DNA of 29,920 nucleotides from a virus: positions 1 through 29,920 of the IMG/VR virus record IMGVR_UViG_3300035698_007052. One strand, 5' to 3'. Numbering within the stretch: the first letter of the stretch is position 1; each line of letters starts with the position of its first letter. Positions 2,589 to 26,549 of the stretch are shown here, piece by piece. The position numbers and the translations under genes were made by a program. Under the pieces are notes generated by a model. The model made no database searches. It had not been told where the DNA came from and was given only the letters and a program-made list of their open reading frames with translations.

Positions 2589-2633
2589 AAACCACCTAAT
2601 TAGATTAATTAGATTAATTAGATTAAGTGGTTT
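2589..2633. repeat. Hairpin with three 9-bp direct repeats at the 3' end of the capsid gene
   Basis: The arms AAACCAC and GTGGTTT enclose three tandem copies of a TTAGATTAA-type 9-mer. One arm lies in the last codons of the capsid gene. On the transcribed strand no U-run follows, so it is not a typical terminator. It may stabilise the capsid mRNA end or moderate read-through. Confidence 0.5.
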
Positions 2634-3471
2634 CTGCTGAGTATGTTAATGATAAATCAACCAACCCTTGAGGTTGAATTACTTTATAACCATATACGTG
2701 CAATCCCTTGATTGCATCAGAGAAACTAGCCTCTGGCTCATAAGCCTTAGTCTCAACAATCTGATCTGCGAACGTAATCGCCTCATTAGTTCCTGCTAAA
2801 CAATGAGTCGTATAATCTGGTGCTGTGCCTGTTTGTGTCAGGTTATTAGATTCAAACACGTTAAATCCCATAATCTTGCCCACAAACCCGCTACCATATG
2901 CCATATTTGCATCGACTGAACCTTCAGTGTTTAAAATCTTTGAAAGCGTTAGTTTTGTAGTTACCCACGGAGGTATAACTAACCAACGACCAACTTTTGG
3001 CACTCCTGATTCTGATAGATACTGATTAGCTAAGCCAATAGTATTCAACGCTAGTGCTGCATCAAATGTAGCATCCGTTACTGTGTGTCCTGCACTCGAA
3101 TATACTCCACCGATTGCTTTATCAACTACATCGGACATTGCATATGCTGCATTACTCATCGCTTGATTCATTATTGAAACATTTGCCTGTGCCTTATCTA
3201 CACTATCGAGTTTGAATGCGAAATAATCCGCTTGATCAATCAATAGTTTTGTCTGTGTTGCATCTAACTCTTCTGGTGAAATAGTTGTTACATTCTTAAC
3301 ATAATTCGCAACAGCTATCTCGCCTACTGAATTAATATTTACTGTGTCTCCCTGACCACTAATCTCGCCTTCGTAATTTCGGTTACAAAGTGCTGCTAAT
3401 ATATGAGAAACTCTGAAAGTATCTAATATTTTAGCTGACCAAATGGTTGGTATAAAATTTTGCATTGACAT
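2623..3471 (-). CDS. Major capsid protein (P22 coat-like, HK97 fold)
   Basis: This 282-residue protein opens with MSMQNFIPTIWSAKILDT, then an YEGEISGQGDTVNINSVGEI segment. This is the signature of the P22 gp5-like coat family common in Gram-positive siphoviruses. It is expected to form the icosahedral shell. It directly follows the scaffold gene, as usual. An AGGGAGTGAATATAA leader gives a strong ribosome site, fitting the most abundant virion protein. There is no sign of truncation. Confidence 0.85.
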   Translation of the reverse strand: MSMQNFIPTIWSAKILDTFRVSHILAALCNRNYEGEISGQGDTVNINSVGEIAVANYVKNVTTISPEELDATQTKLLIDQADYFAFKLDSVDKAQANVSIMNQAMSNAAYAMSDVVDKAIGGVYSSAGHTVTDATFDAALALNTIGLANQYLSESGVPKVGRWLVIPPWVTTKLTLSKILNTEGSVDANMAYGSGFVGKIMGFNVFESNNLTQTGTAPDYTTHCLAGTNEAITFADQIVETKAYEPEASFSDAIKGLHVYGYKVIQPQGLVDLSLTYSAETT

Positions 3472-3505: not shown

Positions 3506-4135
3506 TTACCAGTGTGGCATTGATTTGTCAATCTGTGCCATGTTCTTAGATACCTCGGCTGGTGACATCTTCGCCACTTGTGCCTGTGTTAACAACCCTT
3601 CTGGTGCTTTTCCGCCATTATTGTTGTTGATATCTCTACCATTATCTTTAAAGACTTTCTCGACTTCTTTACTGAGAGTTCCAGTCCACTCGGTTTCCAA
3701 GTCCAACAATGCTGCCTTTGTAGCCTCTGGATCTTTCCCGATAAAATATTTTACCAAGCTGGTTGGTAACTTTTTATCTGTTGCATCCTTGATCGCATTC
3801 GCTGTCATTTCGGCTTTTAACCTTTTACTTGTTTCAGATAACAAATCAGATTCCAACTTTTTAAGTCTTTTCTCTGCATCTGTTTCCTCTGGATACCTCT
3901 CTGTAATTGCTTTTTCAACTTCTGCATCGGTCAGCTTTTTCAGGTTGTTAGTTTTCCAAGTCTCCAAACCTTTGGTGAAATTGCTATCCAACAGTGGTTG
4001 AACGATCTTCTTTCCTGCATCTGAACTGATAAACTCTGCTACTCCCTCAGGTGTTATAAACCCCTTAAGGTACTTCTTGACTTCGTCTGTTCCTGCATTG
4101 TCTTTTAGATACTTCTGAACTTCTTTTAATTCCAT
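3506..4135 (-). CDS. Capsid scaffold protein
   Basis: This 209-residue, highly charged, mostly helical protein sits directly upstream of the coat gene. It has a coiled-coil-like middle (DAEKRLKKLESDLLSETSKR) and a C-terminal SPAEVSKNMAQIDKSMPHW, the pattern of phage minor structural or scaffold (gp20-like) proteins. Scaffolds guide procapsid assembly and leave before maturation. The C-terminal helix is the usual coat-binding part. It lies downstream of a promoter and a hairpin terminator in its leader (4186-4293), so its expression may be attenuated. Confidence 0.8.
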   Translation of the reverse strand: MELKEVQKYLKDNAGTDEVKKYLKGFITPEGVAEFISSDAGKKIVQPLLDSNFTKGLETWKTNNLKKLTDAEVEKAITERYPEETDAEKRLKKLESDLLSETSKRLKAEMTANAIKDATDKKLPTSLVKYFIGKDPEATKAALLDLETEWTGTLSKEVEKVFKDNGRDINNNNGGKAPEGLLTQAQVAKMSPAEVSKNMAQIDKSMPHW

Positions 4136-4185
4136 GATCTGCTCCTCTGCCTCCGAGTTCTCGCCTCAAAGTCAATATAATTTCC

Positions 4186-4224
4186 AAAAATAAAAGTGCG
4201 TTCTCCTCGAAAGGAATAACGCAC
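4186..4224 (-). terminator. Intrinsic terminator/attenuator in the scaffold-capsid leader
   Basis: On the minus strand a stem (GUGCGUU pairing with AACGCAC, then UCCU with AGGA across a small internal loop) is capped by a UUCG tetraloop and followed by UUUUAUUUUU. This is a strong rho-independent terminator. It lies downstream of a consensus promoter (4266-4293) and upstream of the scaffold gene, so it acts as an attenuator or ends a short RNA of about 75 nt. Confidence 0.75.
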
Positions 4225-4265: not shown

Positions 4266-4293
4266 ATTATAACACTTATAATTTATTTGTCAA
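4266..4293 (-). promoter_or_regulatory. Sigma-A promoter upstream of the scaffold-capsid leader
   Basis: A perfect TTGACA (4288-4293) and TATAAT (4266-4271) are separated by 16 nt on the minus strand. Transcription should begin near 4259, exactly before a 7-bp hairpin (4240-4258) at the RNA 5' end. The -35 box overlaps the end of the Com-like gene. Confidence 0.75.
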
Positions 4294-4483
4294 TTCGTAT
4301 AACATCACACAACACAACTTGCACTGGGTATATGTGGCTACGATGACAATGACCGCAATTAACATCCATCTTTATGCCCATAATGACCGCACCAGTCGAC
4401 TTTATTTCGAACGGCAAATCAATATCAGCATTGTAGAGAAACCTTCCGCAGAACTTGCATCGCTGTGTTGTGTGTATTGTCAT
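4283..4483 (-). CDS. Com-like zinc ribbon protein
   Basis: This 66-residue protein has two cysteine pairs, CKFC near residues 9-12 and CGHCHRSH near 43-50, separated by a beta-rich stretch. The arrangement resembles phage Mu Com, a small zinc-finger protein that activates translation of the DNA modification gene mom by binding its mRNA. No mom gene is visible here. It starts 1 nt after the stop of the sialyltransferase-like gene and is the last gene of that block. It might regulate the capsid leader RNA downstream, but this is only a guess. Confidence 0.65.
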   Translation of the reverse strand: MTIHTTQRCKFCGRFLYNADIDLPFEIKSTGAVIMGIKMDVNCGHCHRSHIYPVQVVLCDVIRIDK

Positions 4484-4484
4484 T

Positions 4485-5531
4485 TTAGCACTGCCCCCAG
4501 ACTTTTAGTGTCTGCTCAATATCTGCCAGAGATCCTTGATACTGATATTTAGTCGCTGACATTCTCTGGATGTTGTCTTGTAGTTTCGCGATCTCTTGGT
4601 TTATTTTATCGACCTGACCTTTCTGGAACTTCTCTCTGTCTCGCATCTTAGCAATGAATGGCTCAAACTTCTCTGACCTTCCGTAAGGCTCCATGCATTT
4701 TAACAGATCGGACTCGTTTGGAATATAGAACTTAATGCCTCTGCCTTTTGCTAAACCAACCCAGAACTCGCAGGATGGACGTTGTTTTTCATATTCGCCA
4801 CCCACTGCCATATCCACACCGTACAATGATATTTCATCGAACCCCTCATATATGGCAAGTGCTATCATATACGAAACCGAGTTAGTAAAATAACCGATAC
4901 CGCAAGGATCTAACTCGCCGACCATAGCATTAATTTCATCCCACGGATACTTGATAGACATTGGTACATCCTCGTAATGTTCCTCCATATATACAGGATA
5001 TGGACATTTTTTGAGCCAGTCAATACGCTTGATTTCGGGTTTATGTGGTACATTCGCAGTTCTGCACGCTGAGTTATTACACTCAAACCATCGTGTCGCT
5101 CTCGGTAACTGGTTCCAATGATCGTTCAATCCCCAGATTTCCCAACTCGGATCATCGTATGGTGCATCCTTGAAAGTCATAGCAGTGCCAACAATAGCAA
5201 CCTTTTTAACTTTAGTCTTTTTTAATTTGCGGTTACACTCATCAATAGTCTTTTGTGCTTTAATTCTTACAATTTCCAGTGCCTCATCATCTACAAAACC
5301 GTCATAATCGATGCCTTTAACCGTGGGGATTGAGTTATCTGCATTATCTATTGCTTTTCTTGCATCTGTTTCTGCTGCTTTTTGTTTTAATGTTGCTGTA
5401 AAATCCTCGTCAATAGCTTTTTTAATAATCTTTGGCACCCCTGCAACCTCCTGCATCTTTGCTCGTTTCTCGTCTACATCTGTACAACCGCAACCATACT
5501 CGCATCCGTCTTTGTCTGTTTTATTTGCCAT
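4485..5531 (-). CDS. Sialyltransferase-like/DUF115-like protein
   Basis: This 348-residue protein starts with a Cys-rich tip (residues 10-16, CEYGCGC) and a helical linker. A Rossmann-like domain follows at about 108-282: VAIVGTAMTF (111-120), WEIWGLNDHW (130-139), a central YFTNSVSYMIALAI (214-227) and ISLYGVDMA (234-242) with RPSCEFWVGLA (251-261). A C-terminal coiled coil follows (about 295-345). The core recalls phage proteins related to the alpha-2,3-sialyltransferase or MptE/DUF115 group. It overlaps the nucleotidyltransferase gene by 11 nt, so the two proteins probably act together, the synthetase making an activated sugar for this one. The substrate is unknown and the enzymatic role is inferred. 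Confidence 0.6.
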   Translation of the reverse strand: MANKTDKDGCEYGCGCTDVDEKRAKMQEVAGVPKIIKKAIDEDFTATLKQKAAETDARKAIDNADNSIPTVKGIDYDGFVDDEALEIVRIKAQKTIDECNRKLKKTKVKKVAIVGTAMTFKDAPYDDPSWEIWGLNDHWNQLPRATRWFECNNSACRTANVPHKPEIKRIDWLKKCPYPVYMEEHYEDVPMSIKYPWDEINAMVGELDPCGIGYFTNSVSYMIALAIYEGFDEISLYGVDMAVGGEYEKQRPSCEFWVGLAKGRGIKFYIPNESDLLKCMEPYGRSEKFEPFIAKMRDREKFQKGQVDKINQEIAKLQDNIQRMSATKYQYQGSLADIEQTLKVWGQC

Positions 5532-6315
5532 GTTCCGACTCCTTTGCTCTCATTTTAAAATACATATCCGCTAGTTGCAGATCTTGTTTCGTGTTAATAT
5601 CGAATGAACTCACAATGTCCAGTTCATAACCCAACGTGCATGGTGTTTTTGTTCGTTCATCATTCCATGCCTGACACCTAACCGCATATAAAGCATCTAC
5701 TTGCATCACTGTCATATCGTCTGTTATTCCAGGTAAATCTCCATATTCGACTATATTTGGATTAAAGATGCCGAAAGCACCGTTCGAGAAATATGTCGGC
5801 ACCATTGTATATACTGGATCTACACCGTTCATCCCAAACGGACTAATTAAAATATCAGATCTCGGATCCTTAGTCCAGAAATTAGCTAAGAATGTAGCCT
5901 TGATGCTTGTAACAGTCATTAACTGCTTAGCATGTGGATTATCTATAAACCGCTTGAACGCCTCATCAATCTGCCATGCCTCAACCAGTGGACTCGTACA
6001 CCACAGATTAATAACATAATCATACTGATAGATACCCTCTGCCATAGTCTTTAATGCATGTACCTGAACAGCTCCACCACCGGCATCAAAAGTCGCTAAC
6101 TGCCACGGTCTGTCAATAACCTCGGCATTATATAACTTAGCTATGCCCTTAATTATCTCGCTGTCAGTTGATACAAATACATCATCGATGCAATTAGCCT
6201 CAACCGCTGTTCTAATCGGATGCTCGATCAGCCTTTTGCCTCCGCACTTGCGGATGTTCTTATTCTGAACTCTGGTGCTGTTGCCTTTTGCCGAGATTAA
6301 TGCTGCTACTCTCAT
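5521..6315 (-). CDS. CMP-sugar synthetase-like cytidylyltransferase (NeuA/PseF family)
   Basis: This 264-residue protein is near the normal length of acylneuraminate cytidylyltransferases, which couple CTP to sialic acid, pseudaminic acid, legionaminic acid or Kdo. The N-terminal nucleotide loop ISAKGNSTRVQNKNI (7-21) matches the family pattern, with Lys10 where Arg is common. It continues with VFVSTDSE (46-53), an RP at 69-70 and CTSPL (106-110). The start (ATGA) overlaps the upstream small gene and the end overlaps the sialyltransferase-like gene, so it is locked into the phage operon. No sugar-synthesis genes are nearby, so the sugar acid would come from the host. The exact substrate cannot be told. 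Confidence 0.8.
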   Translation of the reverse strand: MRVAALISAKGNSTRVQNKNIRKCGGKRLIEHPIRTAVEANCIDDVFVSTDSEIIKGIAKLYNAEVIDRPWQLATFDAGGGAVQVHALKTMAEGIYQYDYVINLWCTSPLVEAWQIDEAFKRFIDNPHAKQLMTVTSIKATFLANFWTKDPRSDILISPFGMNGVDPVYTMVPTYFSNGAFGIFNPNIVEYGDLPGITDDMTVMQVDALYAVRCQAWNDERTKTPCTLGYELDIVSSFDINTKQDLQLADMYFKMRAKESEHGK

Positions 6316-6563
6316 TTGCTGCCTCCATTTATCTGTGTTCTGCCGTCTTTTGATAATAGCAGCTTACCGCAATTGGGATTATTGCAAAAAATATCACCCT
6401 CAAACTTTCCATCTTCTATTACTGTAAAATCATCATGAGTACATATCAAAACGTCACTCTCTAATTCTTTAATCTGTGCATCAATAGACCTTCGCAATAA
6501 TACTAAATTGTCATAATACTTTTGTATATCTATCCCAATGTTTATTTTTGTACTTGCCATCAT
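6312..6563 (-). CDS. Small hypothetical protein with possible zinc site
   Basis: This 83-residue protein has an N-terminal helix (residues about 10-35, YYDNLVLLRRSIDAQIKELE) followed by a Cys/His segment: ICTH, then CNNPNCGKLL near residues 60-70. This suggests a small metal-binding domain of unknown function. It overlaps its neighbours by 4 nt on each side, within the operon that leads into the cytidylyltransferase. No family recognised. Confidence 0.6.
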   Translation of the reverse strand: MMASTKINIGIDIQKYYDNLVLLRRSIDAQIKELESDVLICTHDDFTVIEDGKFEGDIFCNNPNCGKLLLSKDGRTQINGGSK

Positions 6564-7580: not shown

Positions 7581-8495
7581 TTAAATATTATGATCTTTTG
7601 CCCACTCTGTATATGTCTGCTGTGGCACAATACCCTCGCCCCTTGCTCTCCTGAATGATGGCTTAATTCCTGCTAATTCCACTCGTATAGTGCAACGACA
7701 ATTAATATCGTCCGCAGCATTGCCCATAAGTCCCGGTGCTTTGCCTGAACCTCCTGCACTACTGTTAAAGTCATCGTCCAATCCGATGGCCACTCCATCC
7801 AAACTTTGATGAGCGGATCTTGTCTTTCCGTCCAATGTAGAAACCCATACTTTCTTTGTATCAACTCCTAATTTATCGGCATGCTCAAAACTTGCCAGTC
7901 TGCCTACGCTGTTTATCCGATGCGTTTCTGTATTTGCTATTCTTATCGCTTTACTTGCATCCTGCCCCAGTACTGTTTTGATACCCTGCATAGTTTTACC
8001 ATAACTCTGACCTTTCACCAACCCCCTTGTTACTTCTTGATTTATTTTACTTTCGATATTTAATCTATCTCGTACAAACCGTTCATCCAATGTCAATCCA
8101 TCAATCGGGTTTTGTATTGCAGCACTTATCCTAACCTCATCCAGTGGAATATAAGATAATTTTGCTTGCAGTTCTTTCTCTATCGCATACCCTGACCTAA
8201 AATACTGGTCTTTGTATTCTACATTCATGCTATCGGTCAACTCTTTATTATTAATGCTATACATTTCTTTTAAATCGTCATGGAGAACTCCCTGCATCTG
8301 CTTGAACCTATTATATTTCTGCATCTCGGGATAAGTCAGAACACCATCAACCTCGTATCTTTCATATATCTCACCGAACACACTACGCATGGATTTATAA
8401 GTTTTTCTGTAGTTATTAGTTAACTCACGTTCTATCCCTGCCAATCGCTTAGCAGACACTTTGTCCATTGTGTTAAACTCACTTTTTAGCGACAT
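7581..8495 (-). CDS. Head morphogenesis protein (SPP1 gp7 / Mu gpF-like)
   Basis: This 304-residue protein directly follows the portal gene, overlapping its stop by 1 nt (TAATG). The C-terminal half carries the Mu F-like minor head signature: IANTETHRI, then KKVWVSTLDGKTRSAHQSLDG and the ending DDINCRCTIRVEL. Proteins of this family attach to the portal, enter the capsid in few copies and help assembly or DNA exit. The N-terminal half is helical, as expected. Intact and of normal length. Confidence 0.85.
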   Translation of the reverse strand: MSLKSEFNTMDKVSAKRLAGIERELTNNYRKTYKSMRSVFGEIYERYEVDGVLTYPEMQKYNRFKQMQGVLHDDLKEMYSINNKELTDSMNVEYKDQYFRSGYAIEKELQAKLSYIPLDEVRISAAIQNPIDGLTLDERFVRDRLNIESKINQEVTRGLVKGQSYGKTMQGIKTVLGQDASKAIRIANTETHRINSVGRLASFEHADKLGVDTKKVWVSTLDGKTRSAHQSLDGVAIGLDDDFNSSAGGSGKAPGLMGNAADDINCRCTIRVELAGIKPSFRRARGEGIVPQQTYTEWAKDHNI

Positions 8496-9931
8496 TATTC
8501 TTCAACTCCGCCCTCTTTTTTCTCTTCAATCTTTCCATCCAAGTCAACCATGCCCTCGTTCTGTGTTGCCATCAACGCTACTATTTTCTTTGGATTATCG
8601 ACGAAACTCATTAACGAATAAATCAATTCATCAGGGAACAGTCCCATCATTGTCTGTGCTGTCTGTGCCTCGTCCAATAAATTAAGAGGAAAGTTTCGTG
8701 TCCATATGAAATCCATCATCAGATAATCGATATTCGTACCTTTCAGACTCCATACCGATGTTAATAATTTGTACTGTGCTCGAAGTGCTGCATCAAACTT
8801 CCTCTCTGCGATTATACACTTACCTTCCAGTCCGATCATTTTATATTTCATAGCGATACCAGATACATTACCACCCAGTGCCACATCGTTAAAGTTAACC
8901 GCTTTACAAAACCTATATATATTCTCTTCCGCTCTGTCCAAGTGATGTTCCACCACCGCATCGTTCAGTGCTTTTGTTATAAACTCGATTCGACATTCCG
9001 CATCTGGCATACCGAATGTGCCTGTTTTCTTTGCCTGTGCCATCTCGTCTTTATCAGGTACCATGCCATAAACTGCCATGTATGCCAACCTGAACTGCTC
9101 GATCTCGGATGCTACATCAGAGAAAGTGGAGTCGTAATCATCTATTAATGCCCATGATTTGTCACAATCACCCTGATGCTCTCTGTTGTTTATGAACTGG
9201 ATCAATGGAATCCCATCGAACATATGTGGAATAACTGACCCGCCATCAACACCGCCATCGTATAACTGGAATAACAATCTCTGGTTGGTTTCTGTGCCAT
9301 CGGCTGACATATAGAACGATATATTCTTGCCATCATACCACTCAACGAAAGTGTGTAGTTTCCCGTTCACTTCGATCGGGTAATAACGCATTGCATATTG
9401 CGACTCGTTCAGAGAACCATCATTTACAAAGATGCACTCCCACGGATCAATATCCTTCACTCGTTCCATACCATCTTTGTCTATATATAATAACCTTGAT
9501 GCATATCCACAGATGGCTGCCATCTTACCAGTCTCTGCATCCAGATCAGGCATCATATTAATGCGGTTAAAACTCTCTATTGCTTTATAATCGAGCCTAT
9601 ATGCTGCATCATTGAAATTATCGCCACTGGTGTACTTCTCTTTGTCCAGATCATATATGATCGGTGTTCCGAACATATACCCCATCTTCCCATCGACCAC
9701 ATCCGAATCAAAAGTGTTGTTAACCTTCCTGTTTACTTTGGAATCATCCGCAAACTTACGTGAAAAGACTGGTACTCCATCAGGAGCAATACTCGCCATA
9801 TACCGTTTATAATTTGAGATCATATGGTCTGCTATTGGTTTATGGTAATCGATTAAATCGTTAAAGACCTCCGACATAATGCTACCGCCATCTCTCTTTA
9901 TCTTCTCAATGATCCATCCCATGTTTAACAT
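8495..9931 (-). CDS. Portal protein (SPP1 gp6-like)
   Basis: This 478-residue protein is full length for the SPP1 Gp6-like portal family, which forms the dodecameric DNA channel at one capsid vertex. Typical features are the N-terminal HKPIADHMISNYKRYMASIA segment, KVNNTFDSDVVDGKMGYMFG and GTPIIYDL (about residues 65-95), and a central HMFDGIPLIQFINN strand. The C-terminus is acidic (EEKKEGGVEE). A strong AAAGGGGGATTCAGA leader precedes the ATG. It sits between the large terminase and the Mu F-like gene, the canonical order. Confidence 0.88.
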   Translation of the reverse strand: MLNMGWIIEKIKRDGGSIMSEVFNDLIDYHKPIADHMISNYKRYMASIAPDGVPVFSRKFADDSKVNRKVNNTFDSDVVDGKMGYMFGTPIIYDLDKEKYTSGDNFNDAAYRLDYKAIESFNRINMMPDLDAETGKMAAICGYASRLLYIDKDGMERVKDIDPWECIFVNDGSLNESQYAMRYYPIEVNGKLHTFVEWYDGKNISFYMSADGTETNQRLLFQLYDGGVDGGSVIPHMFDGIPLIQFINNREHQGDCDKSWALIDDYDSTFSDVASEIEQFRLAYMAVYGMVPDKDEMAQAKKTGTFGMPDAECRIEFITKALNDAVVEHHLDRAEENIYRFCKAVNFNDVALGGNVSGIAMKYKMIGLEGKCIIAERKFDAALRAQYKLLTSVWSLKGTNIDYLMMDFIWTRNFPLNLLDEAQTAQTMMGLFPDELIYSLMSFVDNPKKIVALMATQNEGMVDLDGKIEEKKEGGVEE

Positions 9932-11752: not shown

Positions 11753-11905
11753 TTAGTCTATTTCATCATCCTTAGACTCATAAGATATTCCGCCTGTTTC
11801 AACATAACGCTCTAACCAATAAATAAACTTCTTAAAATCGTTTATATTCTCATGCTTAAACTGACATGCAACCTTTAAAATATCCATTCTAATCTCTTTA
11901 TTCAT
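11753..11905 (-). CDS. Tiny gene coupled to the solute-binding protein
   Basis: This 50-residue frame begins MNKEIRMDILKVACQFKHEN and ends with an acidic tail (ESKDDEID). It overlaps the 3' end of the binding-protein gene by 8 nt, so it is probably translated after it, and is followed at once by the terminator. It has no signal peptide or membrane segment. It looks like the many small early phage proteins rather than a transporter part. Function not recognised. Confidence 0.6.
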   Translation of the reverse strand: MNKEIRMDILKVACQFKHENINDFKKFIYWLERYVETGGISYESKDDEID

Positions 11906-13502
11906 TATACATATCCACTAATTTCTGTCCGCCCATTTCCTCGACCTTTGCAATAAATTCATCGAACTCGTTTAAGTCTCGTTTACCATTGATGAAGTTA
12001 GTTACATTCTCTTGGATGTATGTGTTTAGCGGTGCGGATATTTCCTTAAACATCTCGCTGTCCAGTTCGTCAAGTACTACCGCAGGGATTGAATATGTGT
12101 ATACATTGTCGCCATAAACTTTTCCTGCAGGACTCCACAATCTTGCACCGTCATACCAACGATCGTTGTAATATTCAACATCAGTAAAGACTTTCATCCA
12201 GTTGCTATTCTCACCGATGCCATATACCTCAGTTACCAATGTTTTAAAAGCATCTGTTTTCTGGACTCCCTTTGTTGTGTTCCCGAACTCTCCAGAGGCT
12301 AACTGTTTACAAGTAATATCTTCTTCGCCCCAATACAATGTATCGTGTGATGCACTTAGATCATATGTCCAATCAATAATCTTTAAAATGCTATCCAAAT
12401 GCTCTGTCTTAGCTGATATAATAGAGCCTGTTGTGCTGAACCTTGATTTTCCTGCCCATCCATAAAACTTACCGTCGTATGATGGTGGAATGAATGCCTC
12501 GAACTGTCCTGATAGTCCATTATCTTTTAATGCGTTGTTATGTGTAGGAGCGTTCATCATATTATCTACCCAGAAAGTACAAGTGCCATTTCCTGCATCT
12601 GCATACCATTGTGGTTCAGGATATGCTGCCCACTCTGGTGTTAATATGTCTGTATCTACTAAACTTTTGAAGAACATAATAGCATCGATATAATTATCGG
12701 TTGCTACTGGGTTTATAAACTCTTTAGCGTATTGATCATAATATGGAAACTCGATCAGTGATGTTCCGAAACTATATGATAACAAGTTTAGATCCAAGAT
12801 ACCGTTTCTATTTGTCCATATCGGTGCATCTACGTCATCCCTCATGGCTTTCAATGTATCAAATAGATCATCGAACGTTTCAAACTCCATAGTGTCCGCT
12901 ATATCTGATCTGATTACTCCGCCCAAACTTGATGTTGGGTTATAGTTCCTTACTACCGATGCAAAGTATAATTTACCGTCTGCTGATGTGATTGCTCCAC
13001 TGTATTCCTCATATTTATCCAACCATAACTTGTAATGTGGTAGTTGATCCATGTGATCTGATAACGGAATCAATAAACCTTTTGTGCCGATGTCTTTTGC
13101 AAGGATAAAGTCTGGTGTGAACGATTCGTGGAATAAATCTTGATTACCTATGTTGATTATATCAGGCAGATCTCCACTCGCTACTGTGATTGTTAATTTA
13201 TCCATATAAACGTCTGGTGGAACCATGATCGGCTCAATTATGACATTTCCTGCCTCGCCCAGATAATCATATACTTTTAAATCATTACTGTATACGGTCG
13301 CTCCTGTGTCTCTCATCATCCATGTAATAACTGGTATAGTATTATCTATTACCTCAACTGGATCCTCTTTTTTGACTGGCTCTGTGACCTTTGGTGCGGT
13401 CGGTTGTGGAGTTATAACCTCTTCTGCCTTTGTACATCCGCTCATCATAACTGCGACCAATAGAACTAACACCAACGTGATACTTAGTAACCTTCTTTTC
13501 AA
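11898..13502 (-). CDS. Extracellular solute-binding lipoprotein of a CUT1-type ABC importer
   Basis: This 534-residue protein is a normal-length member of the large-oligosaccharide binding proteins (YtcQ/LplA type). The N-terminus has basic residues, a hydrophobic core and a lipobox MSGC with the lipidated Cys at residue 23. An acidic and Pro-rich linker follows (about 24-57), then the periplasmic-binding fold with DKLTITVASGDLPDIINIGN. It would be anchored outside the membrane and deliver a sugar to the two permeases upstream. The start is TTG with GAGGAG 9 nt before it. It has its own perfect promoter and a terminator after the next small gene. The actual ligand is unknown. Finding such a gene between phage genes is exceptional. 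Confidence 0.88.
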   Translation of the reverse strand: MKRRLLSITLVLVLLVAVMMSGCTKAEEVITPQPTAPKVTEPVKKEDPVEVIDNTIPVITWMMRDTGATVYSNDLKVYDYLGEAGNVIIEPIMVPPDVYMDKLTITVASGDLPDIINIGNQDLFHESFTPDFILAKDIGTKGLLIPLSDHMDQLPHYKLWLDKYEEYSGAITSADGKLYFASVVRNYNPTSSLGGVIRSDIADTMEFETFDDLFDTLKAMRDDVDAPIWTNRNGILDLNLLSYSFGTSLIEFPYYDQYAKEFINPVATDNYIDAIMFFKSLVDTDILTPEWAAYPEPQWYADAGNGTCTFWVDNMMNAPTHNNALKDNGLSGQFEAFIPPSYDGKFYGWAGKSRFSTTGSIISAKTEHLDSILKIIDWTYDLSASHDTLYWGEEDITCKQLASGEFGNTTKGVQKTDAFKTLVTEVYGIGENSNWMKVFTDVEYYNDRWYDGARLWSPAGKVYGDNVYTYSIPAVVLDELDSEMFKEISAPLNTYIQENVTNFINGKRDLNEFDEFIAKVEEMGGQKLVDMYNE

Positions 13503-13556
13503 TGTCTGTGTCTCCTCTCAAATTTGCTTTATTTAGCACCTTAATACATTAACTTA

Positions 13557-13584
13557 ATTATAGCACTCTTGTACTATTTGTCAA
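13557..13584 (-). promoter_or_regulatory. Perfect extended -10 sigma-A promoter of the solute-binding protein
   Basis: TTGACA (13579-13584) and TATAAT (13557-13562) are 16 nt apart, with TGC just before the -10 (extended -10). Transcription should start near 13550, giving a leader of about 48 nt to the TTG start. The -35 box overlaps the last codons of the 75-residue upstream gene. Confidence 0.85.
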
Positions 13585-13808
13585 CTATCAACTGTCATCA
13601 TTAATTGTTCTATGAACTCTAACCCGCCATCGTTATACATCAGCTTATATAATTCTCGTATCTTTTCATCACTTGCCTTTTTTATTGCCTCACCATTTAT
13701 ATATTTATCGTTTTCCAACCTTGCTCTTAACAATTTTATAGTAAATTCAGAATCTTCATCTTCCTTCATAGAATGACCAGTCCATCTATGTTTTAGATAT
13801 TTACTCAT
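13581..13808 (-). CDS. Small hypothetical gene between permease and binding protein
   Basis: This 75-residue helical, charged protein (YLKHRWTGHSMKEDEDSEFT, then INGEAIKKASDEKIRELYKL) has no membrane segment. Its start overlaps the stop of the upstream permease gene by 4 nt (ATGA), so it is translationally coupled to it. It resembles small phage accessory proteins, not known transporter parts. Its 3' end contains the -35 box of the binding-protein promoter. Function unknown. Confidence 0.6.
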   Translation of the reverse strand: MSKYLKHRWTGHSMKEDEDSEFTIKLLRARLENDKYINGEAIKKASDEKIRELYKLMYNDGGLEFIEQLMMTVDS

Positions 13809-14686
13809 CCCTTCACACCTCCGATCATAAACCCTTTTATAAAATATTTCTGTAACATCGGGTATAAAAACAATATTGGCAGGATGCTCACCAACGTGAG
13901 TGCCATCTTTATCGCTCGGCTCAACCCGATGCCGTCCTGCTTTGCTCCTATCGCCCCAAGATAACTCTCCATATCACCTCGCATATTACCCACAACAACC
14001 AGTTTCCTCAGAACGATCATAAGCGGTTGTTTGTCTGCCGATGTTAAATACATCAATGCAGGAAAGTAGCTGTTCCAATAACCTACGAACGAGAATATTG
14101 CCACCACCGCCAATATCGCTTTACTTAGTGGCAAGACTACCCTTATATATATCCACCAGTGTCCTGCTCCATCTATCTTGGCAGCATCCGTCAAACTGTC
14201 AGGTATCTGCTTGAAATTAGTGCGAAACAGGATCAAACTCCATGCACTCAATGATGGTGGAATAATTATCGCCCATATACTGTCCAACATCCCCAGATTC
14301 TTTATCACCAAGAACAAAGGGATCATGCCTCCGCTGAAAAACATCGTGATAACAAAGAACGTAGTGAATGTCCGCTTATATTTAAACTCTTTGACGGTCA
14401 GCACATACGCAGGGAGTGAACAAACAATTATTGTGAAGATAGTTCCCAGTCCTGCATAGATTACACTGTTCATGTAACCTCGCCATATAGTTTTATTCAT
14501 AAACACGATCCGATATGCATCGAACTGGAATCCAACTGGATATAGCTTAACCTCGCCCCTTGTGATTGCATATGTGTCGCTTACTGATACGCTGATCATA
14601 TACAAGAATGGATATATAAATATCATTAACAGCAGGATCATTAATATTGTATTGATTATATTGAATACTGATAGTTTAGAACTCAA
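13805..14686 (-). CDS. ABC sugar permease (YtcP-like)
   Basis: This 293-residue membrane protein has about six hydrophobic segments, the first at about 7-32. The EAA loop contacting the ATPase is present (DAAKIDGAGHWWIYIRVVLP, 167-186). The typical CUT1 C-terminus is KYFIKGFMIGGVKG. It would pair with the LplB-like permease to form the channel. The start codon is TTG, preceded by GGGAG. It overlaps both a small gene upstream (11 nt) and one downstream (4 nt). All family hallmarks are intact. No ATPase gene is visible, so a shared host ATPase of the MsmX type would be required. Confidence 0.88.
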   Translation of the reverse strand: MSSKLSVFNIINTILMILLLMIFIYPFLYMISVSVSDTYAITRGEVKLYPVGFQFDAYRIVFMNKTIWRGYMNSVIYAGLGTIFTIIVCSLPAYVLTVKEFKYKRTFTTFFVITMFFSGGMIPLFLVIKNLGMLDSIWAIIIPPSLSAWSLILFRTNFKQIPDSLTDAAKIDGAGHWWIYIRVVLPLSKAILAVVAIFSFVGYWNSYFPALMYLTSADKQPLMIVLRKLVVVGNMRGDMESYLGAIGAKQDGIGLSRAIKMALTLVSILPILFLYPMLQKYFIKGFMIGGVKG

Positions 14687-14906
14687 TGTTATTCTCCCAT
14701 TTTTTATTTAGCTTTTTATACTGTTCATTAGTTATCTCTTTAAAAAACATAATTATTCTTTGATCAAACAATCCAATATCAAAATCACCATAAGCCACTC
14801 TACTGCATCCGTTCTGTGTCTTTATAGCACCATTTTTCAACTGTTCTTGCGTGACATAGTAATAATATCTAACTTTAGACTTTCTCCTGTTTCTATACTT
14901 CATCAT
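14676..14906 (-). CDS. Small basic hypothetical protein within the transporter operon
   Basis: This 76-residue protein has a Lys/Arg/Tyr-rich start (MMKYRNRRKSKVRYYYYVTQ), then FDIGLFDQRIIMFFKEITNE and a charged C-terminal helix. It has no signal or membrane segment. It overlaps the 34-residue membrane peptide upstream and the YtcP-like permease downstream (11 nt). Not recognised; likely a phage accessory protein. Confidence 0.55.
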   Translation of the reverse strand: MMKYRNRRKSKVRYYYYVTQEQLKNGAIKTQNGCSRVAYGDFDIGLFDQRIIMFFKEITNEQYKKLNKKWENNIEF

Positions 14907-14997
14907 TACGTATCTTCCTTATTATTTCTCTAATCTCGTTGAATATAAAGAACGTTCCCACTCCGATTATTATTATATCTGCTATCATTTCTATCAT
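14893..14997 (-). CDS. Tiny membrane peptide within the transporter operon
   Basis: This 34-residue frame (MIEMIADIIIIGVGTFFIFN, followed by a basic EIREIIRKIRNDEV tail) is one predicted transmembrane helix with a positive cytoplasmic tail. Its start overlaps the previous gene's stop by 4 nt (ATGA) and its end overlaps the next gene by 14 nt. The unbroken chain of overlaps argues it is real. It could associate with the importer or be a small phage membrane effector. Confidence 0.5.
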   Translation of the reverse strand: MIEMIADIIIIGVGTFFIFNEIREIIRKIRNDEV

Positions 14998-15218
14998 CGC
15001 TTATCCCATCTCTCTAATGATGACTCTAATTTCTTAACAACATTTCTACATAACGCCATCTCGTATCCGCATTCTCTTAACGCACTTTTTGCAACCCTTA
15101 TTTCTGCAAATCTTGGCTTATATTTCCTTCTTAACAATCTAATTATTATATATTCTGCATGATCCTCTAATTCAACATCATACAATGTCATGTTTTTTAT
15201 AATCTCTTTTGTCACCAC
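14994..15218 (-). CDS. Small hypothetical protein within the transporter operon
   Basis: This 74-residue basic protein has the stretch YDVELEDHAEYIIIRLLRRK followed by YKPRFAEIRVAKSALRECGY. The composition suggests a nucleic-acid-binding or membrane-peripheral role, but no family is recognised. It overlaps the 3' end of the LplB-like permease gene by 7 nt and the next tiny gene by 4 nt, so it belongs to the same coupled operon. Confidence 0.55.
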   Translation of the reverse strand: MVTKEIIKNMTLYDVELEDHAEYIIIRLLRRKYKPRFAEIRVAKSALRECGYEMALCRNVVKKLESSLERWDKR

Positions 15219-16093
15219 AGTCCGTACCCCGCTTTCCGTGCTGTGTAATTCGCAGCCATTAATAATATAAAGTTTATTACTGAGTTGAATAATCCCACCG
15301 CTACCGCATACGAATAATCCATGCCCAAGATCCCTCGTCTGTATATATATGTGCTTATTACATCCGCTGTTTCATATGTGGCAGGAGAATACATCAAATA
15401 TACCTTCTCAAACCCCACTGACATCACCCTACCAACCGCTAAGATAAACAATATCGCTATTGTCGGCATTAAACATGGCACTGTTATATATCGTATCATC
15501 TGGAATCGCCCTGCTCCATCAATCCTCGCTGCCTCGTATAGTTCTGGGTTGATTCCTGCCAATGCTGCCATATATATAATCGAACTCCAACCCATACCCT
15601 CCCAGACCGATGATCCAACGTATAATGTTCTGAACCACCCCGATTCCTGAAAGAATAGCTGTTTCTCTATCCCCAAACTCATCAATGCTTGGTTAACTAT
15701 GCCTCTTGATGAGAGCAATTCCATCATCAAACCTACCACAATTACTGTGGATAAGAAGTGAGGCACATAACTTATGGATTGAACCATTTTCCTGAACCTC
15801 GCTTTGCGGATCTCGTTAAGCAATAAAGCAAAGACGATGGGAGCAGGGAAAGCTATCAATAGCATATAAAGATTAAGGACTATTGTGTTCCGTACGATCC
15901 GAAAGAAGTATGGATCATTGAAGAACTGCAGGAAATACTTGAAACCTACCCATGTAGTTCCATACAATCCGCCCACTATATCGTACTTCCTGAATGCTAA
16001 TACCAATGAACTCATCGGGATGTAACAGAATATAAGGAATAAGATCGCTGAAGGTATGATCATTAGATATAATGTGCTTTTAGCTTTTCGCAA
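15212..16093 (-). CDS. ABC sugar permease (LplB-like)
   Basis: This 293-residue membrane protein has an N-terminal segment LYLMIIPSAILFLIFCYIPM (8-27) and the WVGFKYFLQFFNDPYF motif of LplB-like permeases. A typical central ISYVPHFLSTVIVVGLMMEL and the EAA loop EAARIDGAGRFQMIRYITVP (187-206) follow. Its partner is the YtcP-like permease. The start is TTG, with AAGGAG about 10 nt upstream; no in-frame ATG exists before residue 11. Full length and undamaged. It follows the methyltransferase and a tiny gene. Confidence 0.87.
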   Translation of the reverse strand: MRKAKSTLYLMIIPSAILFLIFCYIPMSSLVLAFRKYDIVGGLYGTTWVGFKYFLQFFNDPYFFRIVRNTIVLNLYMLLIAFPAPIVFALLLNEIRKARFRKMVQSISYVPHFLSTVIVVGLMMELLSSRGIVNQALMSLGIEKQLFFQESGWFRTLYVGSSVWEGMGWSSIIYMAALAGINPELYEAARIDGAGRFQMIRYITVPCLMPTIAILFILAVGRVMSVGFEKVYLMYSPATYETADVISTYIYRRGILGMDYSYAVAVGLFNSVINFILLMAANYTARKAGYGLW

Positions 16094-16218: not shown

Positions 16219-17457
16219 CTATATATCAGTTTCAGGCATCTCGTTATCTGCATAATGCTCCTCTGTGATTATAGTGGTCTCACCATCCCGAATAAGTGCC
16301 ACTTCTTTTTCACCTGATGTGAAGTTCAGATATCTTTTAACAATAACATCGATATATCGTGGATCTAACTCCGAAGTATAGCAAACTCTGCCTAATTGCG
16401 CACAAGCGATCAAAGTGCTGCCACTACCACCGAAGGTGTCAAGAACAATATCGCCCTCTTTACTGGAGTTCCCTATCAAATAACCACATAACCCTACTGG
16501 TTTCATGGTCGGATGCTCTGTGTTTCGCTGCGGTTTATCAAACTCAATGATAGTTGTTTGTTTTCTATCAGAGTACCATGAATGACTCGCTCCATCTTTC
16601 CAACCATACAATATCGGTTCGTGTTTCCATTGGTAATCCTGCCTACCTATAACCATGCTATTATTTAACCAAACCAAGCACTGACGAAGGTTGTACCCTG
16701 CGTTCTTAAACGCTGTTCTGAAATTATATCCTTCGCTGTCTGCATGAAACACATATATTGCAGCACCGAGTTTTGAAAACTCGTTCATTACAGAAAAAGC
16801 ATCTGTTAAGAACTGCAGGAATATTCCATCCTTCATTTTATCGTTCTTTATCTTGAGTTTATCTTTTGTCGCTCCTTCATAATCTACATTGTATGGTGGA
16901 TCCGTTAAAATTAAGTCCGCTTGTTTATTATCCATGAGTTTAGATATCTCTTCACTGGATGTGGAATCCGTACACATAACCCGATGCTCTCCACATATAT
17001 ATATGTCCCCTGCTACTGCCTTTGGCTGCTCTGCTAAACTCTCGTCAAACTCATCCTCTATTATTTCTGGACCTTCATCCGTATCTAAGAACCCGAAGTC
17101 CGCCATGTCGAGCATATCTTCGTCTTTAAAAGGATCTAATTCAATATCGAGCAAAGCAATGTCCCATGTGGCAATCTCGCCTGTCTTATTATCCGCCAAG
17201 CGATACGCTTTTACTTGATCTGATGTTAGATCCGCATAAAGAACTGGCACTTCCTTGTGGTTTAATACTTGTGCAGCCTTATATCGTGTATGCCCTGCGA
17301 TTATAACTCCATCTTTATCAACAACGATCGGTTGTCTCCATCCAAACTCCCTGATTGAGTTCGCAACGAACTCCACTGCCTCGTCATTTATGCGAGGGTT
17401 CTTGTCGTATGGTTTTATTTCTCCGACTCTCTTCCACACTATCTCCATATTATTCAT
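16219..17457 (-). CDS. DNA methyltransferase with ParB-like N-terminal domain
   Basis: This 412-residue protein combines a ParB/sulfiredoxin-like domain (about 8-100, including GHTRYKAAQVLNHKEVPVLY) with an N6-adenine or N4-cytosine methyltransferase. Catalytic motif IV DPPY is at 186-189 and SAM motif I DTFGGSGST at 340-348, the order of the beta class. It probably methylates phage DNA to resist restriction or mark packaging sites. It has its own promoter (17476-17504) and GAGGTG ribosome site. Such fusions are common in Gram-positive phages. The ParB part here is not a partition protein. Confidence 0.9.
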   Translation of the reverse strand: MNNMEIVWKRVGEIKPYDKNPRINDEAVEFVANSIREFGWRQPIVVDKDGVIIAGHTRYKAAQVLNHKEVPVLYADLTSDQVKAYRLADNKTGEIATWDIALLDIELDPFKDEDMLDMADFGFLDTDEGPEIIEDEFDESLAEQPKAVAGDIYICGEHRVMCTDSTSSEEISKLMDNKQADLILTDPPYNVDYEGATKDKLKIKNDKMKDGIFLQFLTDAFSVMNEFSKLGAAIYVFHADSEGYNFRTAFKNAGYNLRQCLVWLNNSMVIGRQDYQWKHEPILYGWKDGASHSWYSDRKQTTIIEFDKPQRNTEHPTMKPVGLCGYLIGNSSKEGDIVLDTFGGSGSTLIACAQLGRVCYTSELDPRYIDVIVKRYLNFTSGEKEVALIRDGETTIITEEHYADNEMPETDI

Positions 17458-24106: not shown

Positions 24107-25734
24107 CCACCAACCAACGATAATATCTCTTCGATCATGTTCCCTTTTTTCTCTAATGTTTTATATATAGTTTCATCAATCGTTCCTTTCACAACGATGT
24201 GCATAAATACTACCTTTTTCTTTTGTCCTGGTCGATGTGCCCTCGCCAGACTCTGCTCATAATCTCCCAAACTAAAACCGAGTGAATAATAAATACAATA
24301 TCGTGATCTGACCAGAGTGATTCCCAAACCGCCCGATTTAACCTGAACCACTATTGAGTGGTACTTCCCATCCTGCCATTCTTTTAGTGTGTTCTCATGC
24401 CCAGATAACTCCGCACAGGAGCGACCGCTCTCGACCAGTGCCTTTTTCACTTGCTCAATATCCTTAGTAAATCTACAGAACACCGAGATCGGCTCATCCA
24501 TCGGGATATCGAGAAGTGAGTCCTTAAAACATTTTATCTTTTCATCTCCCAAATGTATTAACTCGTTTGTATCATCATCCTTCATATATCCGCTCGCTAT
24601 CTGCTGTAACCGCAGCATTTTAACCAGTGCGTTTGTGGCTGTCAAGATATGCTCCTTATATTCCACCGCATAAAAGTTAAGCATTGACTTATACGCTTTC
24701 AAAGTCTCGCTTTTAAGTTCTGTATATCGCATCTGGTGAACTGCATCAGGCAGATCAAGAACATCCCGATCCGCCCGATATGCCAAGCGATAAAACTTCT
24801 CGTTCAGTTCATCAGTGTTTTTAACTCCTCTGATAATGTCATACTGTCCCATGCTTTTATAAATCGCATATTTGTTCTTAAACGGTGTCCAGTACCTACC
24901 GAATAAATTCTCATCCAGAAACTTATATTGTCCGAATATATCAAGTGGCATATTGGACATCGGTGTTCCTGTCAGACAAACTCTCCTCTCGGCATCTTTG
25001 CCATATTGATATAATGCCTCTGTTGCCTTTGCTTTGTGAGTTTTGATCCTGTGGCTCTCATCCGCTACTATATAATTGAGTTTAACTTTTTTAACTACTG
25101 TATTAACAAAATCATCTCTCCACACACTTTCGTAATTAAAAACTGCGATCCCTTTTTTATGCATTGCTCCTGCGAGTTTAAACATCTCGACTGCTTTCTG
25201 ACTTCGTTTCTTGACCGAGTCTTTTCGGCTGTTGAACATAAGCCACTGACTGTTCCCTGCGTGTTTCTCAAACTCAGTCCGCCATACATCGATGACCGAA
25301 GTAGGACAAACTATTAATACATTCCCGACATCGTTATTGATTATAAAATCCACTATAACTTTAGTTTTTCCAGTACCCATGCCCATATACAACATCGCTG
25401 ATTTGTGGTGGAGTATGAAGTTATAAGCCTCTAGTTGATGTCTCCACAACTTATGCTTTACAATCTCTGGTTCGACCAGAGGGATAAGTTTGTCGCACTT
25501 TATCCCTTCCTTAGCCAACTGATAAAATTCCTCATCCGCCACTATCTCCATATCTTCTCTGGCACACAGTTCAAATAACTCTATCGATATGCTCGGAGAA
25601 AGTGGAAACTTCCAAGCCTTATTCTTTTTACTCCATGTCCTGTTCGGGATGGTTTTTATCTGCTCCACCATCGCTGTTGAATAAGGGAAACTGCAGTGCA
25701 GTTCATCCCCTATGATCCTAATTTTAAAATTCAT
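24103..25734 (-). CDS. SNF2-family DEAD/DEAH helicase
   Basis: This 543-residue protein has an N-terminal segment recalling HARP-type annealing helicases (RTWSKKNKAWKFPLSP, 32-47), then Walker A GMGTGKT (118-124), DESH (225-228) and LTGTPMSN (254-261). The C-terminal SF2 domain carries GGLGITL and QSLARAHRPGQKKK. It is the common phage-type compact SNF2 helicase, a DNA translocase used in replication fork or recombination steps. The gene overlaps the cysteine-repeat gene by 11 nt. Complete. Confidence 0.88.
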   Translation of the reverse strand: MNFKIRIIGDELHCSFPYSTAMVEQIKTIPNRTWSKKNKAWKFPLSPSISIELFELCAREDMEIVADEEFYQLAKEGIKCDKLIPLVEPEIVKHKLWRHQLEAYNFILHHKSAMLYMGMGTGKTKVIVDFIINNDVGNVLIVCPTSVIDVWRTEFEKHAGNSQWLMFNSRKDSVKKRSQKAVEMFKLAGAMHKKGIAVFNYESVWRDDFVNTVVKKVKLNYIVADESHRIKTHKAKATEALYQYGKDAERRVCLTGTPMSNMPLDIFGQYKFLDENLFGRYWTPFKNKYAIYKSMGQYDIIRGVKNTDELNEKFYRLAYRADRDVLDLPDAVHQMRYTELKSETLKAYKSMLNFYAVEYKEHILTATNALVKMLRLQQIASGYMKDDDTNELIHLGDEKIKCFKDSLLDIPMDEPISVFCRFTKDIEQVKKALVESGRSCAELSGHENTLKEWQDGKYHSIVVQVKSGGLGITLVRSRYCIYYSLGFSLGDYEQSLARAHRPGQKKKVVFMHIVVKGTIDETIYKTLEKKGNMIEEILSLVGG

Positions 25735-26257
25735 TTTTACCCCATAACTTTTTTACTATTTCTATCTCTTTTTTGTATGCTATTCCATGCTCATTATCGC
25801 CATGAGTTTTGTTAACTGCTTTTTCAAACTCTACTAAATTGCCACTAAAACAGCCACATGATACATATATCTTACCTTTATTTAAATAGAAGTTTGTTAC
25901 TGATTTTCTCGAACCTATTCTATCTGTTAAATATTGTTTAGGTTGTATACTGCAATTACGGCAATCACTGCAATCACTGCAATTACGGCAATCACTGCAA
26001 TTACGGCAATTACGGCAATTACGGCAATTACGGCAATCACGGCAATCACTGCAATTACGGCAATTACGGCAATAACTGCAATTACGGCAATCACTGCAAT
26101 AACTGCAATTACGGCAATCACTGCAATCACTGCAATTACGGCAATAACTGCAATTACTTAATGTTTTACTATGTTTTTCTGCCTGTTCTTCTGTGTAAAA
26201 ATCACAATTCCAACTGTTATTATTATCATCTACCCAATTATTATTTACTTTTTTCAT
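25724..26257 (-). CDS. Protein with Cys at every third residue
   Basis: From the ATG at 26257 this encodes 177 residues. The first 35 are Asn/Asp/Glu-rich (NNNWVDDNNNSWNCDFYTEE). About 70 residues then have Cys at every third position (units CRN, CSD, CSY), with a 9-bp repeated DNA unit. The C-terminus (DRIGSRKSVTNFYLNKGKIY, then VSCGCFSGNLVEFEKAVNKT) is a well-formed domain that I have seen on similar hypothetical phage proteins. Regular triplets could form a triangular left-handed coil or bind many metal ions. The function is unknown. It overlaps the nuclease gene. Confidence 0.7.
   Translation of the reverse strand: MKKVNNNWVDDNNNSWNCDFYTEEQAEKHSKTLSNCSYCRNCSDCSDCRNCSYCSDCRNCSYCRNCRNCSDCRDCRNCRNCRNCRNCSDCRNCSDCSDCRNCSIQPKQYLTDRIGSRKSVTNFYLNKGKIYVSCGCFSGNLVEFEKAVNKTHGDNEHGIAYKKEIEIVKKLWGKNEF
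25948..26160. repeat. 9-bp tandem repeat tract inside the Cys-triplet gene
   Basis: About 23 near-perfect units of CAATTACGG, CAATCACTG or CAATAACTG follow one another. Each unit encodes Cys plus two variable residues. Such arrays are prone to expansion and slippage, so copy number probably differs between related phages. Confidence 0.9.
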
Positions 26258-26549
26258 TTCCAATTCCCTTCTCTCTTAGTTTTATTTTTGCCTCATCCAA
26301 ACTATGAGCGGTGAATACTATCGCTCCTGCCTGTTTCCATTTATTCATTACTAATCGCTGGATCATGGTCGGCTCGTTATCTTCTTTCTTACATTCAATA
26401 AATACTGCTAGTCCTCCATGCATACACGCCATTATGTCTGGTTCACCCGTATGCCCGAACATTCCGCCATGCACCTTGACCGCTCGGCACATGGGGATAT
26501 TGTTTATATATGCTATAATCTTATCTGTTACTAATGTCTTTTCGCTCAT
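26241..26549 (-). CDS. VRR-NUC domain nuclease
   Basis: This 102-residue protein is a compact stand-alone VRR-NUC nuclease of the PD-(D/E)xK type. It shows GEPDIMACMHGGLAVFIECK (catalytic Asp, Glu and Lys), then a Gln-containing helix (MIQRLVMNKWKQAGAIVFTA). Phage members often act as Holliday junction or flap nucleases in recombination with helicases. It follows a small gene and precedes the Cys-repeat gene, with overlapping ends. Confidence 0.85.
   Translation of the reverse strand: MSEKTLVTDKIIAYINNIPMCRAVKVHGGMFGHTGEPDIMACMHGGLAVFIECKKEDNEPTMIQRLVMNKWKQAGAIVFTAHSLDEAKIKLREKGIGNEKSK

Follow-up and report, generated by a model that had tools for sequence, protein, structure and literature searches.

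A candidate virion-sialylation cassette, consisting of a CMP-sugar synthetase and a sialyltransferase-fold protein, among the head genes of a tailed phage

Few phages are known to carry sugars covalently bound to their particles. In the mycobacteriophages Che8 and Rita, glycans are reported on the major capsid protein and the glycosyltransferases are phage-encoded (PMC11256854, citing Freeman et al. 2023). The Azotobacter phage TayeBlu has a gene annotated as 'alpha-2,3-/2,8-sialyltransferase', which is CstII-like (PMC12772287). In bacteria, the central domain of the Maf enzymes resembles CstII (PMC11339370), a member of the GT42 sialyltransferases, whose catalysis uses His188 (PMC4202792). 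Our literature searches returned nothing direct on phage particles decorated with nonulosonates.

The DNA analyzed here, referred to as the window, comprises all 29,920 bases of its IMG/VR record and represents a tailed-phage fragment with its head genes on the minus strand. Along that strand, in the 5' to 3' direction, the genes for a pair of sugar-type ABC permeases and for a solute-binding lipoprotein are followed by the small and large terminase, the portal and the minor head protein, and then by small ORFs, a CMP-sugar synthetase, a gene encoding a protein of 348 aa, a zinc ribbon, the scaffold and the major capsid protein. The end of the synthetase gene (5521) lies inside the 348-aa gene (start 5531), which gives an overlap of 11 bases. 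A previous sequence-only reading of this DNA had proposed the synthetase, the 348-aa protein and the zinc ribbon, and the three ORFs were confirmed on the minus strand at the coordinates listed below.

7581-8495, minus strand: minor head protein, Mu gpF-like, context gene (PF04233, PHROG 115)
6312-6563, minus strand: small ORF of 83 aa, its stop overlapping with the start of the synthetase gene, with a relative in contig L012
5521-6315, minus strand: predicted CMP-sugar (nonulosonate-type) synthetase of 264 aa, NeuA/PseF-like (PF02348, PDB NeuA, AF2 model)
4485-5531, minus strand: 348-aa protein with a predicted sialyltransferase fold (AF2 model, Foldseek, VIA)
4283-4483, minus strand: Com-like zinc ribbon of 66 aa, CxxC...CxxC (weak PF10122 match, alignment)
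3506-4135, minus strand: scaffolding protein, context gene (PF14265, PHROG 172)
2623-3471, minus strand: major capsid protein, context gene (PHROG 267, E 2.1e-58)

Elsewhere in the window, a ParB N-terminal domain fused to a DNA methylase (PF02195 and PF01555) is encoded at 16219-17457 (minus strand), and a protein with a long Cys-rich NC(S/R)(Y/D)C repeat, the DNA of which is a short-unit tandem repeat, is encoded at 25724-26263 (minus strand).

The fold and family of the synthetase are clearly predicted as NeuA/PseF-like from its sequence and its AF2 model. The protein matched PF02348 with an E-value of 4e-17 (63.2 bits, above the curated cut-off of 22.6) and the Neisseria meningitidis NeuA structure 1eyr (NmNeuA) with an E-value of 7.5e-14. 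The NeuA fold spans the whole protein: the model aligned with Vibrio cholerae NeuA (VcNeuA, 6ifd) at Z 25.9 over 208 residues and 2.6 A and with NmNeuA at Z 24.2, both above KdsB and GlmU. The likeness comprises this fold together with the motif I Lys and Asn, the Arg-Pro and the first metal Asp (Asp239, equivalent to Nm Asp209), which is invariant. The enzyme of the window differs, however, in its score against the PseF equivalog TIGR03584 (100.7 bits, under the cut-off of 205.7), in the replacement of NeuA Gln104 by Trp and of Arg12 by Lys, and in having only the first residue of the metal-binding aspartate pair (Nm Asp209, Asp211). The second Mg ligand, Nm Asp211, corresponds to Asn241 in the window, to Asp in L002, L003 and L011, and to Asn or His in the other relatives. 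In the N. meningitidis enzyme, the D211A substitution costs 15,000-fold in kcat, and Q104A chiefly raises the Km for Neu5Ac (PMC2901514). Because of the D211N and Q104W changes, the activity and specificity of the window copy are best described as putative.

Pfam, PHROGs and NCBIfam searches gave nothing useful for the 348-aa protein, and no curated family was found for it. An AlphaFold model and a family alignment, both built on 55 rows (relatives), showed a core at about residues 106-279, where pLDDT was mostly >90, helices at 33-63 and 82-104, and one long C-terminal helix at 291-345. When this model was compared with the PDB using Foldseek, the top 12 matches were all GT42 sialyltransferases, and only GT42 reached an E-value <0.001. 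With VIA-align, GT42 (CstI/CstII) made up the top 10, with Z-scores of 10.8-10.1 over 152-162 residues; the MptE-type HPPK 8sd5 scored 9.9 over 135 residues (3.0 A), SteA 9.1, thiamin pyrophosphokinase 9.0 and the human sialyltransferases about 7. By Z, GT42 and the MptE-type HPPK, which lie within 1 of each other, are thus tied as fold matches of the predicted model. The protein shares its fold with 8sd5, which we take to be a member of the PF01973-type (MptE-like, DUF115) family, and the nearest viral structure models were uncharacterised or carried DUF115/MptE-like names. The expectation that a sugar-nucleotide-type fold of the GT42 or MptE kind would be found was therefore supported, with GT42 ranking best and the MptE/DUF115 type second.

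At the sequence level, none of the 55 family members matched PF06002 (GT42) at an E-value of 0.1 or better, and none matched PF01973 (Maf/MptE-like, DUF115). The likeness to CstII is confined to one short motif, S-x2-YM-x-A-x-AI-x2-G-x2-EI-x-L-x-G-[VI]-D, which the family has in common with GT42. No invariant or nearly invariant His that could stand for the catalytic CstII His188 was seen in the 55-row alignment; Glu246, Gln250 and Arg251 are nearly invariant. A paired Cys-rich tip had been put forward as an anchor to a structural protein, but this N-terminus is variable, the tip is absent from relatives and modelled with low confidence, and a conserved anchor was thus rejected.

The missing histidine, together with Z-scores for the MptE-type HPPK, SteA and thiamin pyrophosphokinase that lie so near to those of GT42, would also be consistent with another enzyme of the same superfamily, that is, an MptE-type pyrophosphokinase or a SteA/thiamin-pyrophosphokinase-like nucleotide binder. 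We regard this as quite unlikely, since GT42 chains alone passed the Foldseek E-value of 0.001 and since the family is strongly linked to CMP-sugar and NeuB genes, as described below, whereas no linkage to folate or thiamin genes was observed. Alternatively, both proteins could be catalytically dead and act as assembly or scaffold-interaction factors, built from a coiled coil and a nucleotide fold. The D211N and Q104W changes in the synthetase, the long C-terminal helix of the 348-aa protein and the site of the genes between those for the minor head and scaffold proteins point in this direction. However, a dN/dS of 0.10 between the L002 and L003 synthetases indicates purifying selection (dS was saturated in most pairs, which were unusable), the pocket-side positions of the synthetase, as of the 348-aa protein, are conserved across the family alignments, and distant members of the family are found together with far more complete sugar pathways. 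A loss of catalysis in both proteins is thus very improbable, even more so than a different enzymatic activity of the 348-aa protein.

Both genes are seen in 15 related contigs, and in each of these the synthetase is directly upstream of the 348-aa gene, with the pair lying between the genes for the minor head and scaffold proteins; these contigs do not amount to 15 independent lineages, as several come from the same few metagenomes and their alignment holds nine distinct versions. Since the arrangement recurs in every related contig, it is not due to chance. The zinc ribbon was present in 13 of the 15. In the TerL-related phage L095, which lacks the cassette, the minor head gene runs straight into the scaffold gene, and the cassette is thus an added module. 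The proposal that the two genes co-occur held in the lineage of the window, where they are inseparable, but not throughout the family: most of its distant, fragmentary members show no synthetase, and the transferase can thus occur alone. No NeuB was found in the records of the window's lineage that were searched, and the sugar must therefore be drawn from the host or imported. A first scan of GTDB genomes detected no host of this exact lineage.

Members of the 348-aa family occur widely in uncultured phages. Among 45 distant virus records that contain the family, 12 carried NeuB, compared to none of 50 TerL-related controls without the family (Fisher p 5e-5), and a PF02348 CMP-synthetase was found in 14 of the 45 and none of the 50 (Fisher p 8e-6), the two sets comprising 1.06 and 0.90 Mb, respectively, with controls that are not matched for host or habitat. 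Eleven of the 12 NeuB-positive records carry both NeuB and the PF02348 enzyme. For comparison, a search of 50,697 annotated phage records yielded three matches with one NeuB query and one match with one synthetase query, and a bacterial contig filed among the phages accounts for one of the three NeuB matches and for the sole synthetase match. In L065, the capsid gene comes first, followed by the transferase, the synthetase, NeuB and then a gene that by eye resembles a head-tail connector; in L030, NeuB, NeuC (over the NCBIfam cut-off) and the synthetase are followed by the capsid gene and the transferase. Some further records have NeuB and the synthetase 4-20 kb away from the transferase. In Bacillota MAGs, the synthetase adjoins the 348-aa family in six of six loci, most of them with a tandem family pair and NeuB. 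Taken together, a link of the 348-aa family to a CMP-nonulosonate donor is well supported. The assignment of the pair as a NeuA/PseF-like synthetase and a GT42/MptE-like transferase was thus supported both by the predicted folds and by the strong genetic link to nonulosonate synthesis genes.

Several of these loci have features of their own. The phage record L077, with the order NeuD-like gene, N-acetyl sugar amidotransferase, transferase, synthetase and NeuB, encodes much of a nonulosonate pathway; its amidotransferase is WbuX (over the NCBIfam cut-off) and its synthetase is NeuA-like. The chromosomal loci L163-L168 of Bacillota/Clostridia MAGs possibly represent an unnamed bacterial nonulosonate glycosylation system, and in L164, the single full fusion scanned, the synthetase is joined to a KDN/KDO-8-phosphate-phosphatase-like (KDN/KdsC-type) domain. 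The TerL-related phage L132 has two diverged family members (2041-2991 and 8225-9430) and no synthetase in the locus. Among cultured phages, one family member was found, in the Microcystis phage Mvi-Yong1342-1 (PP496355.1, 34781-35584), where it is directly upstream of the small terminase gene and labelled 'type 11 methyltransferase', which is likely a misannotation.

The sequence-only reading had left open whether the virion, the phage DNA or the host surface is glycosylated. Among the neighbours of distant family genes, major head proteins dominated the tally, and individual checks found at least 19 distant records in which the gene of a major head protein precedes the family gene at a distance of no more than two genes. 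Of the 12 NeuB-positive records, eight are among the 19. These head proteins belong to PHROGs 10, 617, 9953, 283, 3437 and 1328, and it is mainly because this adjacency recurs across different, unrelated capsid families that we prefer a virion acceptor over the host surface. From this position, we infer that the acceptor is the capsid, with the major capsid protein the likeliest candidate. Glycosylation of DNA found no support and was rejected, as no supporting gene was seen; CMP-sugars are not known as donors for DNA glycosylation. The pair could instead add a nonulosonate to wall or capsule glycans of the infected cell, leading to superinfection exclusion or receptor masking. Nonulosonates are normally surface sugars, and phages do alter host glycans, for example with phage enzymes that convert host pseudaminic acid (PMC12053666). 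However, the gene is located in the late head module rather than among early or lysogeny genes, neither a membrane segment nor lipid-carrier machinery was seen, and the adjacency to capsid genes is found in unrelated phages. Host-surface modification thus appears unlikely.

The earlier statement that no further sugar genes were present was wrong, because two ABC permeases of the sugar type are encoded at 11898-16093, together with a solute-binding lipoprotein, as follows.

15212-16093, minus strand: sugar-type ABC permease 1 (PF00528; conserved in the window's lineage)
13805-14686, minus strand: sugar-type ABC permease 2, UgpE-like (PF00528)
11898-13502, minus strand: ABC solute-binding lipoprotein (nearest PDB entries AlgQ1/AlgQ2; conserved in the lineage)

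The solved structures nearest to the lipoprotein are the alginate-binding AlgQ1/AlgQ2 (E 2.5e-5). Within the lineage, identity was 53-81% for the permeases and 60-80% for the solute-binding protein, and the importer genes are directly upstream of the terminase in every lineage record reaching there (the window, L084, L085, L086, L088 and L093). No such genes were detected in four TerL relatives that lack the cassette. In the viral scan, the permease was detected in the lineage of the window only. Permease homologues in 105 records of the phage collection were not used, as these are mostly unannotated contigs that resemble bacterial carry-over. No ATPase gene was detected, and a host ATPase could serve the phage importer. 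It is possible that the importer brings in the sugar that the synthetase uses. A complete route, in which the importer would supply an acidic sugar, the synthetase would convert it to a CMP-sugar and the transferase would attach it to the capsid, with nonulosonate decoration of virions by this family being common and unreported in uncultured phages, is doubtful as a whole.

The Com-like zinc ribbon and the capsid promoter that had been predicted next to the pair were both found, the promoter running from 4293 to 4266, and two hairpins were detected in the leader that follows.

4266-4293, minus strand: perfect extended -10 sigma-70-type promoter for scaffold and capsid (TTGACA-16-TATAAT)
4198-4222, minus strand: leader hairpin 1, then a T-run, terminator/attenuator-like (compensatory changes in relatives)
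4151-4171, minus strand: leader hairpin 2, immediately before the scaffold start, with a conserved loop (two-sided changes in 4 of 7 pairs)

The match of the ribbon to Mu Com (PF10122) extends over 9 residues and scored 14.7 bits, below the cut-off of 22.9; its two CxxC pairs (C9, C12, C43 and C46) are invariant in nine relatives. The promoter overlaps the zinc-ribbon gene at its end, precedes the scaffold gene and is the sole 12-of-12 sigma-70 match between positions 2400 and 12000; its hexamers are recognisable in seven of nine relatives. In nine relatives, covariation of the leader hairpins was 0.620, compared to 0.267 after shuffling, and hairpin 2 stands directly after the zinc-ribbon gene and before the scaffold start. 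Rfam gave no match in the window, and the loop motif of the leader hairpin did not recur beyond chance elsewhere in it. Mu Com acts on the mom leader, and by analogy, the scaffold leader hairpins may be the target of the Com-like zinc ribbon.

Gene content, folds, conservation and the genetic linkage to nonulosonate synthesis and capsid genes are the observed basis on which we propose, with a probability of roughly 55%, that the pair forms a virion-sialylation cassette, in which a Maf-like, CMP-nonulosonate-dependent transferase and its synthetase would decorate a virion protein in the cytoplasm. The activity, the sugar, the acceptor and the benefit are part of what is proposed. The synthetase would use CTP to activate a nonulosonic acid or a related 2-keto sugar acid, which would come from the host pool or be imported. 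The 348-aa protein, as a soluble transferase, would then pass the sugar from its CMP carrier to a structural protein of the phage, most probably the major capsid protein or another protein of the head. The transfer would take place before or during head assembly, on the model of the bacterial Maf enzymes, which glycosylate flagellin ahead of assembly, and could provide, for example, shielding or altered adsorption. The lack of a conserved His, the single short motif shared with CstII, the D211N and Q104W changes and the lack of NeuB in the lineage were counted against this proposal. If it is true, the virions of many environmental phages would be sialylated, which would affect adsorption, immune recognition and particle stability, and the family would add a type of protein-sialylating enzyme that is neither GT42 nor Maf. 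Capsid sialylation by phages thus becomes a question directly open to mass spectrometry.

When compared to known systems, the 348-aa family resembles GT42 (CstI, CstII and the Pasteurella multocida enzyme) in its predicted core fold and in the shared short motif, but differs from it by the absence of a PF06002 match and of a conserved catalytic His, by a lid that is shorter by eye, by an invariant E-Y-x2-Q-R instead, and by extra N- and C-terminal helices. With Maf (PF01973, Maf_flag10), the phage core shares the CstII-like central fold and, as proposed here, the CMP-nonulosonate donor and the modification of a self-assembling surface protein; it differs in having no PF01973 match, a smaller size, other flanking parts and capsid instead of flagellin genes as neighbours. 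Compared to Che8 and Rita, the phages described here belong to another group, and CMP-nonulosonate enzymes are not mentioned in the available portion of that account (PMC11256854). For TayeBlu, the accessible text gives a single annotation, with no synthetase or capsid link (PMC12772287). Phage-encoded virion glycosylation was thus already known, and our analysis suggests, from sequences and structural models, that an undescribed transferase family with a predicted function in this process is what is new here.
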